A DNA stretch of 64,000 nt from Craspedostauros australis (lineage: Eukaryota > Bacillariophyta > Bacillariophyceae > Mastogloiales > Achnanthaceae): positions 62,001 through 126,000 of the forward strand of contig JAMXDE010000051.1 of assembly GCA_026770025.1 (NCBI GenBank). The letters run 5' to 3'. The notes under the pieces are model-generated. The model saw nothing but the letters and a program-made list of their open reading frames with translations, had not been told where the DNA came from and did not search any database. This document shows positions 7,021-60,225 of this stretch, piece after piece. The stretch's first letter is position 1, and the number at the start of each line of letters is the position of its first letter. The position numbers were made by a program, and so were the translations under genes.

Positions 7021-10000
7021 AAGTTGAGATTCAATGAGGGACAGACTAATACCGAACACGGTATCAACCCGATGGGAGAAATTCTTGTTTTGGCGCGAAA
7101 TCTTCCGACCTGATCGACCACCAAATCTTTTCTCCTCCTTTCTCTCCTCCATTCACGAATCCATCATGACTCAACCATGACCGACCTGACTCACATTCCA
7201 CCTTGGGAACTATATGCTCCTCAGATCCTTTTACTACAACATACCTCGATTCCCTCCATGCTGATGACTACTGCACCACTGCCGCAGTCTTAACGCATGT
7301 ATCCAACCTGCTTCAACTCAAGCAATGGAATCCGAGGGTCAGCTCCAACCACAGCCACTGCTTCATGGTCGTCACTGCCATGTGCCATGATCTACACTGC
7401 AGTGTATCTACGTGTGTGGAGAGCAAGGCGCTGTAATGACTGTATACCCTGTAGCACTGAACCAAGTACATCAGTGCAGGGTCTCGCCAAAGTTGTGTGG
7501 CATCGTTTCTTCACCCTACTAACACTACAAGCTAACTCATAATAAACACAGACAAAGATTAGCTACAAAGCACTCTACTTCTCATCGTTACAAGTTATAA
7601 CTCTTCAATCAGTACACCTCTCTTGAACTGCATCACACGGCTATCCCGAAGCTGGCAGATCCAAGAGACATCCTCCACCGATTCGCGCCAACTACGCCCG
7701 AATCCTAACTATCCATAAAATATAGTTTGGTGTTGTCAATCAAGAGCAGATATTGATCGCGACGTTGAAGCAAAAGATGATGCCGACACAAGGCGCAAAA
7801 GAACTTCCCGCTATCCACAACAAACGGCATGAGATACAGACAGAAACCCCGCGAGCAAGATGCTCTGTGCAGGGACGCGAATGACAACAATGGGAATCGG
7901 CAGTCCTTGTGTGCATGATTGCGTGGTTTGAGTTCGTGGGTGTTTTGTTCGGAATGATTTTCTTGGAACAAATGTTCAGGAAGAGGAAGCGGAAGGAGCG
8001 ATGTTGGGTTGTCTCCGTGCTTTTGCGGATTTACTGCGAGGTAACAAATATGCTCCGCCATTCCGTATCCGTTGCCAAAATGGCGAGGGGTCACAACAGC
8101 TGAGAACAAAAGGGTGAGACTAATTGTTGGTGTCTGATGCTGTGAGCATCTACTATGAAGTTGAGCACCTGTTCGTTTGTCCTGGAGGGGACATGTCGTG
8201 TGCCATGGTTGTTGGGCATGGGTGCTTGATGTATGCGGTGATCACAAGCCCCCTTGATGGAATGGAGGAATGCGAGAGAAGTCATCGATACGACGATGCG
8301 GACAGAAGGGGGCTGGGGTATGTCCATTGCGACAATGAAAGCCCTTCTCAGACTCAATGGGTAATTTCGTTCGCACGAGTGCTTCAACGAGCGCTTGTAC
8401 ATACGCGTACGCGAGCGACTGTGTATAGTTATGATCGGAGAGGCCAGAAAAGAGAAAACGCAACAAGCGGATCTATTGGTGTTGGATGTCCGCGTGTTGG
8501 CATCTCCTCAGCAAATGCAACGAAGGGTGCTTGGTGTGACCGGCCAATCCCCTTTCCCCTTGCCGAAGAAGCTCGCATGGTGTCCGTGTCAGGGATAGAA
8601 CGAAGGAGGCAAGGCCCAACGAGATCGTGTGGTGTTATGGTGTTGCTTGTGCTCTGGAGAGTCGCATAGACTCAAACAATCGTGTGCAGGTGATGGAGGG
8701 CGGCGATATGCAAGACGAGGCATCAGTTAGCCCACGAGCATGGGCAGGACAGTGGATGGAGGGAGGAGAAGATCGTTCCACATGTCTCCTGTCGGCACTG
8801 GATGCAATGCATTGCGAAGCATCAAGGAGCGCGGGTTGATTTCGAACTGACTCCACACAAATTCGTGCCGATGATAGGTGTTGTTAGATCATCAAGGTAT
8901 ACGATCTTTGCAGCGCAACTTTTGGGTGTTCCTGTGCACGTTTGTTTACCAACGAGTAAACCAGACCGGGCGTCTGCACCAATACTGTCCATCGCATCCG
9001 GCAAGAGCTGGATCGTGAAGGAGGATCACGGTACAACCTATTGCACCCTTGATCCGCTGGCTGGATTATCATGACGTCGATGCTCAGGTTTGTCTACCTC
9101 CAAACAGAAGCGGGTATTTGCCGTCGTATAGAATGGTGCGTGGGGCCAAGGAATGATGGAGCGTCTAGCGCGCATCAAACCACGATGGTCATGTCTGGAA
9201 GATGCTGCTCTGTCTGTCACTCATGCCAGGACACAACAAGCACACATGTGCCATGGGCGACAGCAATCAGGCCCGCAAGGACATCGCATGAGAAAGCAGT
9301 TCGTCACGACTCTATCTGTTGACCTTTGTCCCTTTCATCGTGACCGCAATCAATGTGGAGGAACAAATTGGGTTCCACAAGAGAGTGTGATCCCCTCTCT
9401 GATTTCGCTTTTGGTCCAGACGAGGAACGCGTAATGACTCGTGTGAGTATGTATGGCATGTATCCGTGATGGGCTGATGGATTGATGGATTGACGAGTTG
9501 ATGAGATGCCTGTCGATGACTCGCCTGACATCGATGCGGAGTTGGACGGCGAGGCACGATGGTTAGGTAGGATTGGTTCGTCTTCGTTTCGTACCTCCCA
9601 CCAACATGCGAGAAACGGGAGGCTTGCATGTTTGTATGCGATGGATGGACAGGTGGATCGATTGGCACGACAGCGGATGTCGTTTCGGCTGCAGGATCAG
9701 TGAGCGGGTAAAGGATGTTATTGGTATCCACCATCGATCTGGCTCGCAGGAGAGGCATGACTTGCAGTACGAGTATTCTAGAGACTCTCTGGAACGCCGA
9801 AACCGACAGCGACAGGTCACGGCGATCACAGGCGATGCGGATTGCATCCAGGGAGGAAGAGGCGAGCCCGCAACGGAATGAAATGGCAACTCCGAAAGGA
9901 TACAAGCCGCCGGAAAGTTCTTCTCCCGTGGGCTGTTCTCCTTTGGTTCTCCAACACATGCTCGATGGGAAGCAAGCCCAAAGCAAGGAATACGATCCTG

Positions 10001-55623: not shown

Positions 55624-55627
55624 TTAC
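55624..55627. repeat. Target site duplication TTAC, left copy
   Basis: TTAC directly abuts the outer base of the left terminal inverted repeat. The same four bases abut the right terminus at 60222-60225. Confidence 0.8.
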
Positions 55628-55781
55628 GACCCGGTTGTGTGACGGGACCTGCAGTCGGTCCTGGAGGGGTGGCAACTTACGGGGCTTTCAGCCAAGCCAC
55701 CCACATATTCATAAACTAGAACAAAATATAAGAATCATAGTGGACGCAGATTTTGCTTTAATGTCTTATTTTAATTTTTAT
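55628..55781 (+). repeat. Left terminal inverted repeat
   Basis: 154 bp that pair, with about ten mismatches and no gap, with the reverse complement of 60068-60221. The outer 53 bp are perfect and GC-rich; the inner 100 bp are AT-rich, with all the mismatches. The outer part is probably the transposase binding site. Confidence 0.95.
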
Positions 55782-56214
55782 CCATCTTTGTAGATTTACG
55801 GTCCTCTTGGTCGAATATGAACACTGCTCCGTGATGATTGCAGGGCATTGATTAGCTTTTCCGATGCAAACAACGCAATGTGCGCAGACACGTTCGGGAA
55901 AGAACTTTTTTTGACGGGTTGCGTACGGAATTTGACATTTCAGCGACGCCATTGTTCAACTTGTCCGAGCACGTTTTTGAAATAATAAACCATTAGTTGA
56001 CGTTACCATTCAAATTCAAATTTTGATTCTCGTCACATGTCACAAATCTCCTCACATTTTGCCGCCAAATCGAGTTTTGCTTTTCGTGGTGGTGTGCTGT
56101 GCTTGTGGCATGTTCATGTAGTTCTTGTATTGTCACCTTCTTGCACTCCTCCTGCTCAGTTCATTTCCATCATTACTAGTTTTCTCTATCCACCCATCAG
56201 TACCAATCAGCATC

Positions 56215-59200
56215 ATGCCCGTCTCTACCACGAACGCTGCGTCGAAGGACGCCAATCTTTCTCCCTCCAAGAAGCAGCGTTTTCCCTCCTCTCCATCCGT
56301 GCGTCCCTTCCCATCCGATCCGATTGATTGTAAGGAACTCTTCGCACCATCTACTGCTGAGAAGCTCTTGCCTCCATTGGATATGGATGGTAAGCAGCAC
56401 AATCCAACTTCTGCAACAGACAAGCTCCTCCCTCCTGTGCTCGAAGGCGCGACCTTCAACAACGAGTGTGACCTTGAGACCCCAGGCAACCACGAGCAAA
56501 ATCGCACACTCAATGCAACCAACAAGAAGCTCTTCGTCTGTGTGCACATCACCACCAATAATGGCATGATTCTTGACACCTCCAAGGTCACAGTCCAGGC
56601 CTTTGGACAGGGCTCCAATGCTGGGACAAAAGTGCATGTCAAAGTCTGCGTCCCGACTCCTCCAGCTTTCCCCGCACCCCTTCCCGCACCGACTATCCAA
56701 CCAGCAAAGAAAGGCAAGCGCATCCAATGCTGCAAGGCTGGCGACAACGAAGCCTTCCGCCCCAAGGGACGCAACAAAATCAAGAGCAGGAAATCAAATG
56801 CGGGAAGATTCCAAAACAAGCACAGCACGAACAAGAGAGATGCGTTTGAAACCATCCACAAGGTTTGCAAGAGCTTGGAGCGAAGAACCTTGCGACTGTG
56901 CTGACCAAATTTCCTCGTTGCGGATTTGTATTGGGGCGCAAATCCAACAAGCAAGTGTGGAGCAAAGCGAAGAAGATCTTCGCGGTGGCCTCCAATGCGC
57001 TGTGGAAAGCGCTGATTCTGGCAATGAACTTGCCAGTTCCTCAGATGGAACAGGTGGTGGTGTTCGTGCGCGCAGGGGTAGACTTGCCGCCTATCAAGCT
57101 GGCTCCCAACCTCTACGCGATTTGCCTCGTCGGCAAGAAAAACATTGCACGCAAAGCAAGGTGCATTCTTGCCATGTCTGTCTTGCCACGCCAATGTACT
57201 AACCTCCTCTCGCGACACAAGAGCGAACTTCCTGACGATCAGCGTCTTCGCCTCTTGCCAGAGCAATACACCATCACACAGGGCCAGCTCCTCACTCTGC
57301 GCAACTACTACAAGCTCTTGCGCGAGGGCAATGTGCTTGGTGCTGCTGTTCACGACTATCGTGTCAGCACATACAGCTTGGCTGGCATGGTGTCCTTCAT
57401 CAGCAACACAACCACATACAAGGTGGGCCTTTGTCACAATATCAAATTGGGAGGGGTGATATTTGAAAACGTGCCAGTATTCGAATGTGGCAGAACGAGT
57501 GTAGACGAGCTGTTCCACATGTACAAGATTACGACGAACAATCCAGTCAGCAAGCCAGCATTCTGAGCAATGACAGGCCTGCTCACACGCAGAGACAAAG
57601 TGGTTACTGGTCTCCCCTCTTTCGAAAACTACTTCTGGATGGCAACGAAGACGTTGAAGGAGATGCTCGTGCGCTTGAATGCTCTACTCAAGGATTCATT
57701 CAACGGTGATGACGGACACGACGACCTACCCGTGGAGTATATTCAAACCTGTGAGACATTGTTGCGCGATCTGGACCTAATGATCACATGCCTCAAGTGG
57801 GAGTATACTGCGTCGCACATGCAGATCAAGTGCAAAGAAGACTGCATGCACTGCGCTCATTTCGCGCTTCGCCGCGATCCAAAAACGTGACAGGCTAAAT
57901 CTACACTCAACACCACCACCACAACAGCACCTGCCAGCACCGATATGACATGCGTGGTCATTCATCCTCCCACAACAACAACAGAGTGTGATGCCAATGC
58001 CATTTCTCCCATCACTCATGATCAACAAGGCAAAGTATGCGACAGATGTGGAGACGCGATGCGATTCATGGATGTTCGCGTCGCACCATTCATCGAGACG
58101 CTCAAGGTCAATCATCTTGGCGACCATGAGGATGAATTAGGCAGTATGCTGGAGGCGGTACTGGGCTTCAACAATGAGATCACTGTGTACATGGCACACC
58201 AAGTGAGAGCAAAGGTCCAATTTGATCAGATGAACAAGAACAAGGCCAAGCTCAACAACAATGACAAGTGCGCCTATGTCATCATCAACCATAAGCAGAA
58301 GATTCTGCTGACAGCGCAAGGAGAATCACAGACAGAGTACTGGGGCAAGAAGGGCATGTCGCTCCTTGGCGTTTTGATTGTCACTTGCAAAGATGACAAA
58401 TTCACCTATCACTTTGTTGATATAATTGTTCATGACCTGCCAACCCAAGACACACTTAAAGTTGGTGGGCTTCTCAAAGCCATCCAGAAGGAGGTTCGCG
58501 ATCTCCTACCATCGGTGACAGAAATCATCCTGCAGTCAGACAACGCTGGCTGCTTTGCCAGCCACGAGCACATCGCGCTCGTCTCATCATGGATCAACAA
58601 GAATGCGTCATGCAACAGACTTCCCCAATTTGTCATTTGGATCTGCACAGAAGCCCAAACCGGCAAAGGGCGAATTGACACTCACTTCGCCTACATCACT
58701 ATCGTACTACGATCCTATGTGCAAAGTGGCGGCAAGATTCAAACCGAACACGAAATTTTTGTTGCGATGCGAATGGGAAATATCAGAGGTACTACCACCG
58801 TCTTGGTTGGCGCATTGGGTTTGAAAGGTCGCTGTGTGACGCACAAGACAAATGCACGCATCAGGTTCCGCGCGAAGGGCATGAATGTACGATCAACGCA
58901 CGAGGCGCAACACAGAAACGGCTACGCAGACATACTTGCAGCTTCAAATGTTACTGATCCAGTGCATGTGGAGGAAGTTTAATGGGAAGACTATGACGTC
59001 ATGAATTCCGAGGTTCCTATCATGATAGAACACCAGTCCACACAAGAGCCACTTGCAACAACATCACCACGGAAGCAGAAAAAGACCCTCAGGTTCGCGA
59101 AGAGTGCCACCGAAAGCAAGGCGCTGACGTACCTCGAAGGGATCAACATGGCAGCCTTGGAGACACCTGACGTAAGTAGTGTGCTGCAGGACACCACAGC

Positions 59201-59789
59201 AGCAACAGAACATCTGCGATTGGCTGAACCTGGCTGAGCTGCGAAAGCCGTACAACGTAACAAGCCCATTCGCCCATACCTGGTGGAAGTGTTGGAGAAG
59301 GTGTGCAGAGTGGCACGCGCGGACCCGAAGAACAGACCAACCAAGTACGAGGCATTCAGGCGGTGCATGGAGACGACCAAAATGAAGACTGACTGGTATG
59401 CGCAGGTACACGTGAACCCAATGCAAGTGAAGCAATACATGTCCGCGTCGTACCAGCGCACGAAACCGAAGCCCACGAACATGAGTACCCTGGAAACCAC
59501 GATCAACAAAAACGCAACGAACACAACGAACACCCCACCACCGACGAACGCGAACAGCACCCACACAGAGATCGTGCCTGCACAACACACAACAGCAGAT
59601 GAGGAGGAAATCGCGCTGCAACAAGAAGAAAACGAAGCATCGGAGCAAATTGCGTGCGAGACACAAACAATGAAGGAGAATACGGAATCTCCGGAGTTGG
59701 TGGAACAAAATGTGAGGACACAATTGTTGCGGCGAGTCAGAGCTGCAATGGAGGCAAGTTATTACACACGTGAAACCCAATTAAGATGA
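56215..59789 (+). pseudogene. Degraded transposase gene of the transposon
   Basis: One gene of about 1,190 codons starting at ATG 56215 (MPVSTTNAASKDANLSP). It is read in one frame to about 56890, then after a one-base shift in a single frame to 59789. That second frame is interrupted by TGA at 57564, TGA at 57888, TAA at 58980 and TGA at 59235. Coding character continues across every stop. Order of parts: a Ser/Lys-rich N-terminus; a basic region with KKIF and KLLREGNVLGAAVHDYRV; a Cys/His block CKEDCMHCAHF near 57830; a CDRCGDAM pair near 58040; an RNase H-like core. The core shows GESQTEYWGKKGMSLLG, LQSDNAGCF (Asp at 58539) and CTEAQTGKGRIDTHF (Glu at 58650), then VRGTT-like IRGTTTV. The first expected core Asp is Asn (IINHKQK, 58287). 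The C-terminus holds a YEAFRRCMETTK block. Homology is to transposase-like proteins I recall from fish, cnidarians and stramenopiles. Confidence 0.88.
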
Positions 59790-59942
59790 AAAGGGGTAAA
59801 GATGCAGATTATGAGTCTTATCGATGTCGTACGAGTCTGTGCAACTGCTTCACTGCTGGATCGTCCTTGATTGGTGCACGTGTTCATATCGTAACGCCAA
59901 TTCAACAGTTTCACACGTATCACGGATTGGAGGGGCTAAGAA

Positions 59943-59948
59943 AATAAA
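59943..59948 (+). terminator. Possible polyadenylation signal of the transposase gene
   Basis: AATAAA, 154 bp after the last transposase stop codon and inside the element. A six-base motif can arise by chance, so this is weak. Confidence 0.35.
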
Positions 59949-60067
59949 TTAGCACTGCAATTGACATCGATACTTCTTCTTTTGGCGATACGAATCAAGG
60001 CACCAAGACACCGAATCTGGCCGTAGTGCGCTAGTCGTGTCTAGATAAGCGCGAAATCGATGGGTCC

Positions 60068-60221
60068 ATAAAACTTAAAATAAACCATTAAAGCAAAATC
60101 GGCGTCCACTATGATTCTTATATTTTTATCTAGTTTATGAATATGTGGGTGGTTTGGTTGAAATCCCTGTAAGTTGCCACCCCTCCAGGACCGACTGCAG
60201 GTCCCGTCACACAACCGGGTC
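60068..60221 (-). repeat. Right terminal inverted repeat
   Basis: Partner of 55628-55781. The outer part, 60169-60221, is the exact reverse complement of the outer 53 bp of the left end. Confidence 0.95.
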
Positions 60222-60225
60222 TTAC
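60222..60225. repeat. Target site duplication TTAC, right copy
   Basis: TTAC directly follows the last base of the right terminus and matches 55624-55627. Bases further out differ on the two sides. Confidence 0.8.

Follow-up and report, generated by a model that had tools for sequence, protein, structure and literature searches.

Hairpin formation on the flanking DNA, with a free 3'-OH left on the element, is characteristic of hAT and RAG/Transib, and hAT elements duplicate about 8 bp of target, while TTAA is the target of Sola3. The sources cited here describe a C/DxxH signature between the second D and the last E for hAT, MuDR, Kolobok, P and Dada (PMC10045372), termini of the form 5'-TG..CA-3' for Ginger and IS481EU (PMC10045372, PMC10741241), and CC..GG termini (PMC10045372) together with a TTAA duplication for piggyBac. 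Sola elements are reported there to have 4-bp target site duplications (TSDs), a DDD transposase and terminal inverted repeats (TIRs) of 11-1124 bp, and to occur in bacteria as well (PMC10741241); Sola1 is long in bivalves (mean 5,445 bp; PMC10294476) and has a family in the brown alga Ectocarpus (PMC12477816), and Sola2 is assigned the targets AWWT or ATAT/AAAT/ATTT and TIRs of 12-21 bp (PMC3627910). Here we describe an element from the diatom Craspedostauros australis, located in a stretch of 64,000 nucleotides (assembly GCA_026770025.1, contig JAMXDE010000051.1, positions 62,001 to 126,000 of the forward strand), which is referred to below as the window. The element occupies positions 55628-60221 (4,594 bp; boundaries GACCC...GGGTC) and is probably a dead, structurally complete copy of a recently active TIR transposon family whose RNase-H-fold transposase of about 1,200 amino acids would excise the element through hairpins on the flanks.

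The original prediction had read from this DNA inverted termini of 154 bp with an identical outer part of 53 bp, TTAC on both sides and one transposase-like gene between them, all of which can be seen in the sequence. The left TIR (55628-55781, forward strand, starting GACCCGGTTGTGTGACGGGACC) and the right TIR (60068-60221, reverse strand) are both 154 bp long and 93.5% identical, with the outermost 53 bp the same at both ends when read by eye; the inverted arms measured at 55625-55781 and 60068-60224 are 93% complementary. The two TTAC copies, features without strand, lie at 55624-55627 and 60222-60225, and the left one was assigned from the sequence together with the NTAN rule of the family presented below.

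A search of the same genome (74.8 Mb, 90 contigs) for further copies, as proposed with the original prediction, recovered a large family. A terminus pattern built from the TIRs of both clades of this family gave 384 matches (191 forward, 193 reverse) and the reversed pattern, used as the control, gave 0; the element is thus more than a product of chance, and the termini correspond roughly to the ends of 190 elements. With the catalytic piece of the transposase as the query, 375 candidates were obtained, and among the 112 matches listed, 27 (79-100% identical) fall into the clade of the window element, whereas 85 form a second clade, 53-58% identical to the window catalytic piece. The matched part contains no stop in 84 of these 85 second-clade matches, many open frames run to 1,100-1,300 codons, and dozens of family copies have open frames of about 1,200 codons. 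Twenty second-clade copies were taken with their flanks, and 18 of these were measured together with the window copy. The measured copies fall into two length forms, of about 4.6 kb and about 5.7-6.1 kb; the most similar pair of copies is 98.5% identical, and one TIR pair reaches 99.4%. Across 20 reading frames, the median ratio of nonsynonymous to synonymous substitution rates (dN/dS) was 0.27 (range 0.18-0.34; 174 of 190 pairs, with dS of 0.05-1.5). The open reading frames (ORFs) are under purifying selection, and the transposase was therefore kept functional until recently. The family is multi-copy and recently active.

When the ORFs of three long copies (L017, L012 and L009) were compared by eye, none recurred in the 1.6-1.7 kb by which the long form exceeds the short one, and a second conserved gene in this part was therefore rejected. 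Shorter derivatives with the same kind of termini are also present, namely L059, L060 and L061 (about 1.2-1.4 kb), two of the same size within L017 (about 8580-9970) and L018 (about 8330-9740), and L076 (about 3.4 kb); they were presumably moved in trans. Neighbouring elements of the family adjoin one another: at L069 (C75:94560-94650) a second-clade terminus begins immediately behind the CTAT duplication, and in the flanks of L019 and L023 another family terminus starts about 77 and about 34 bp past the insertion, respectively. In L028, a 384-bp inverted repeat with 98% identity (1003-2064) ends precisely at the insertion point of that copy.

The target of the family is NTAN. Both ends could be resolved in 19 copies, among them the window copy, and in all of these the flanking 4-mers are equal and TA is central; the script required equal 4-mers, not TA, and left out L010 (no TIR pair in the stretch) and L016 (a scarred end). 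For the window clade, 17 further pairs were read with no equality condition: the 4-mers agree in 12 that have both termini intact and in 2 with a scar at one end, they differ in 2, and one pair (C48) is truncated. A stricter terminus pattern, again without a requirement for TA, found TA in place in 321 of 336 termini. The search for empty sites covered 16 of the 19 resolved copies and omitted L012, L019 and L023, whose flanks resemble other family termini. Matches reaching well across the junction were obtained for seven, and in five of them (L014, L015, L017, L021 and L025) the site carries a single intact NTAN with the junction otherwise unchanged. A duplication length of 4 bp follows from this, and the reading of TTAC as a duplicated target is upheld at the level of the family; none of the genome places listed for the flanks of the window copy is its own empty site. 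The target of L021 is a repeat with at least 23 copies at 95-100% identity. The left flank of L024 was considered as an empty site and rejected, for at least 28 places match it but extend merely 7-17 bp past the junction. These data also bear on the view that the true duplication is TA, as in Tc1/mariner elements, with the outer bases equal by chance. Such a view would suit the near invariance of TA and the presence of Mos1 among the nearest predicted folds, but the single 4-mer at empty sites already refutes it, and the outer bases are equal in 12 of the 14 pairs with intact termini for which equality was not required; we give it practically no credence.

The single gene of the window element (about 56.1-59.8 kb, forward strand) is disrupted. 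The reading frame shifts near 56.85-56.90 kb, which puts its N-terminal part (56122-56904, a stop-to-stop frame upstream of the frameshift, delimited from ORFs and by comparison with intact relatives) in a different frame from the remainder, and in-frame stops ending at 57566, 57890, 58982 and 59237 divide that remainder into five pieces. As read from the ORFs, these are a second piece in the shifted frame with a stop at its end (56850-57566), a third between two in-frame stops (57567-57890), a fourth with the putative catalytic RNase-H-like core (57891-58982), a fifth again bounded by two in-frame stops (58983-59237), and a C-terminal piece (59238-59789) recognized with the help of intact relatives. 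The fourth piece, delimited also with alignment A2 of 45 proteins, carries VIINHKQK, YWGKKGMS, QSDNAGC and TEAQTGKGRIDTHF. The motifs singled out at the outset (a FGK/WGKKGMS-type turn, SDNAGC, xExQxGKxxxD and IRGTT) are all found within this open frame, as YWGKKGMS, QSDNAGC, TEAQTGKGRID and NIRGTT. In VIINHKQK, N occupies the position of the first conserved acid, where all 45 rows of A2 carry D. Shifted in frame, interrupted by four in-frame stops and altered at one conserved acid, the gene is dead and this copy can hardly mobilise itself. The designation as a complete DNA transposon therefore holds for the structure, with many family copies and empty sites behind it, and fails for the gene of the window copy.

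The protein of the family is predicted to be an RNase-H-fold (DDE/DDD) transposase of about 1,200 amino acids. Alignment A2 contains two invariant D and the invariant E627, and D636 is present in all 44 ungapped rows; an invariant D is located on the helix following strand 5, and the surroundings of the third acid read E-x-Q-x-G-K-x-x-x-D. The spacing between the second D and E is merely 31-37 residues, so an insertion domain appears to be lacking at that place. An invariant W four residues ahead of E627 is, as a guess, a candidate base-flipping residue. In the relatives of alignments A1 and A2, a conserved HC..ALG..C..H..C..C cluster, perhaps zinc-binding, stands ahead of the catalytic core and appears partly lost in copies of the window genome. 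The nearest predicted folds are of the retroviral-integrase type (the Ginger group) together with mariner, Mos1 included. Foldseek ranked a herpesvirus terminase nuclease and Mos1 highest, both above an E value of 0.001; rows for Hermes and piggyBat were weak with the whole model, and no KDZ or Academ structure was among the rows listed, from which exclusion of these superfamilies does not follow.

The protein had no credible match in Pfam (25 of 34 families listed), NCBIfam or PDB sequences. Viral contigs and prokaryotic genomes provided no placement and no confirmed relative, and one scan of prokaryotic contigs with alignment A1 returned 81 pattern matches, none confirmed as a relative. Among the weak structural matches are transposases of large viruses, as might be expected if the element were a viral-integration relic or a captured gene between repeats. 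This origin is already refuted by termini that end precisely at unrelated sites and number in the hundreds, as well as by the empty sites, and together with the negative result in viral contigs this leaves it barely any probability. The named relatives are diatom transcripts from Dactyliosolen fragilissimus and Ditylum brightwellii, and the family is probably algal. The link to animal proteins made in the original prediction is unsupported: for the similar motif set presumed to occur in animals, a search seeded with an animal-like sequence (candidates gathered by exact words, 8,000 scored) returned the known family and some shorter relatives with no named animal source, a result that does not show absence in animals.

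Damaged ends of the family suggest how the enzyme cuts the element out. In total, 128 ends were classified in two sets (105 and 23), and the classification was repeated on all of them by an open palindrome search (arms of at least 8, loop of 0-8). A palindrome was present in 2 of the 98 standard NTAN termini, both unlike the scars, and in 10 of the 30 other ends, a frequency that is no rate because some ends were chosen since their matches looked truncated. All 10 scars consist of an inverted copy of the adjoining flank running into a shortened TIR; one of them, C3c, nearly duplicates another, C14, apart from mutations. For seven scarred ends, the duplication could be read at the opposite end of the element, and the number of duplicated bases was varied from 0 to 4, in all combinations, for the flank strand and for the inverted copy. 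Two bases on the flank strand and four in the inverted copy fit all seven, and this is the unique fit in all four informative scars; in the remaining three, whose duplication has T as its last base, further combinations are compatible as well. If a flank that retains two TSD bases on one strand and four on the other is closed on itself, the product equals the hairpin that should result from a nick in the non-transferred strand 2 nt outside the element and a cut in the transferred strand at the element end. The scars could instead be ordinary microhomology or template-switch products of random breaks, uninformative on the transposase. They are joined to trimmed TIRs, and other damaged ends show plain deletions or substitutions, as this explanation would have it; the centre fixed relative to the duplication, however, and the absence of any other centre among the 128 ends in the open search make it unlikely. 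One further terminus, at L102 (C7:1988530-1988700), has its first 43 bp in tandem, with no TA target before the inner copy, and fits neither a hairpin nor a simple deletion.

In the flank-hairpin mechanism that we propose, the non-transferred strand would be nicked 2 nt outside the element at each end, and the freed 3'-OH of the flank would join the opposite strand precisely at the element border. This joining would close a hairpin on the flank and release the 3'-OH of the element, the transferred strand being cut exactly at the element end, and the freed ends would then be joined to the two strands of an NTAN target at positions 4 nt apart. In an aborted excision, the flank hairpin would be cut open away from its centre and fused to an element end that has been trimmed, leaving an inverted copy of the flank. 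Off-centre hairpin opening and end-joining likewise give rise to P nucleotides in V(D)J joining.

Besides the selection of ends, several points weigh against the picture of an NTAN-targeting transposase with hairpin excision. The duplications are unequal in 2 of the 17 window-clade pairs (C37 and C24b), 15 of the 336 termini lack TA, and the junctions of L020 and L026 are altered in paralogous sites (ACAC in a 95% paralogue for L020, a poor match for L026). The third catalytic acid may be either E627 or D636 of A2, and Foldseek against PDB gave no match below an E value of 0.001 with the whole model or the core. The first scar detectors looked for a 2-nt loop alone, and in the 105-end set also for the NTAN letters. 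Twenty non-standard ends have no scar; 6 of them are a complete terminus not preceded by NTAN, and the rest show point changes, deletions or rearranged ends. The evidence for the hairpin step consists of 10 scars, including one near-copy, and the identical sequence would result if a cellular ligase sealed a staggered break, which leaves hairpin chemistry unproven.

If the family stands outside Sola, it would represent a new transposase superfamily with defined ends, a defined target and many open copies, and these make it directly testable. The scars predict cleavage positions and would tie the flank-hairpin chemistry seen in hAT elements and in V(D)J recombination to a core of integrase type that lacks the usual insertion domain; if true, eukaryotes would have one more way of arriving at hairpin chemistry of the RAG kind. 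Annotators gain a transposase overlooked by the Pfam and NCBIfam models used here.

With its TIRs, fixed-length TSD, conserved acids and predicted fold, the family is in general kind a cut-and-paste DDE/DDD TIR transposon. The Ginger1/2, IS3EU, IS481EU and retroviral integrase group shares the closest predicted fold and a spacing near 35 between the second D and E, and Ginger1 also the 4-bp TSD; the family differs in its GA(C/G)CC termini, which lack TG..CA, and in the motif around the third acid, and the rve profile matches 2 of 45 proteins, with a best E value of 0.0043. Tc1/mariner resembles it in the central TA and the Mos1 fold, whereas the 4-bp duplication seen at empty sites and the scars pointing to a cut outside the element set the family apart, and a mariner transposase is about one-third the length of its protein. 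The TTAA users piggyBac, Sola3 and Kolobok share a 4-bp duplication with central TA, yet the outer target positions can be any base in the family, and NTAN with GA(C/G)CC contrasts with the TTAA and CC..GG of piggyBac. The C/DxxH signature was found in 1 of 45 proteins, and the 4-bp duplication departs from that of hAT. The scars would fit the flank hairpin and free element 3'-OH of hAT (Hermes, Ac) and RAG/Transib; the nick would lie 2 nt outside the element, in contrast to 1 nt in Hermes and at the border (0) in RAG, and the family combines a 4-bp TSD with the apparent lack of an insertion domain between the second D and E.

Taken together, the features tested count against Tc1/mariner, piggyBac, Ginger, IS481EU and the C/DxxH group, leaving Sola in place. 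No description of the family was found in the literature searched, where subscription papers are poorly covered, so absence from print does not follow. That the family is a divergent Sola1/2/3 lineage, and hence a new family in a described superfamily, is a doubtful but serious alternative. As far as the descriptions cited above go, Sola resembles it in 4-bp duplications, long elements (4.6-6.1 kb for the copies here), widely varying TIR length and eukaryotic hosts that include a brown alga; long TIRs and an invariant D in the helix that follows strand 5 are also in keeping with this placement, and ATAT, one of the Sola2 targets, is compatible with NTAN (PMC3627910). Beside the reported DDD, the family has two invariant D and, as candidates for the third acid, E627 and D636; against AWWT or ATAT/AAAT/ATTT and the short TIRs of Sola2, or TTAA in Sola3, it has NTAN in 19 of 19 resolved duplications, GA(C/G)CC termini and mostly long TIRs, a comparison made by description only. 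The suggestion of an undescribed superfamily thus gains from the lack of any Pfam, NCBIfam, PDB-sequence, viral or prokaryotic placement, and is held back where Sola is set apart by descriptions alone. We tentatively propose, with confidence somewhat short of even, a new eukaryotic DDE superfamily, which would be characterised by a 4-bp NTAN duplication, GA(C/G)CC termini and flank-hairpin excision with a nick 2 nt outside the element.
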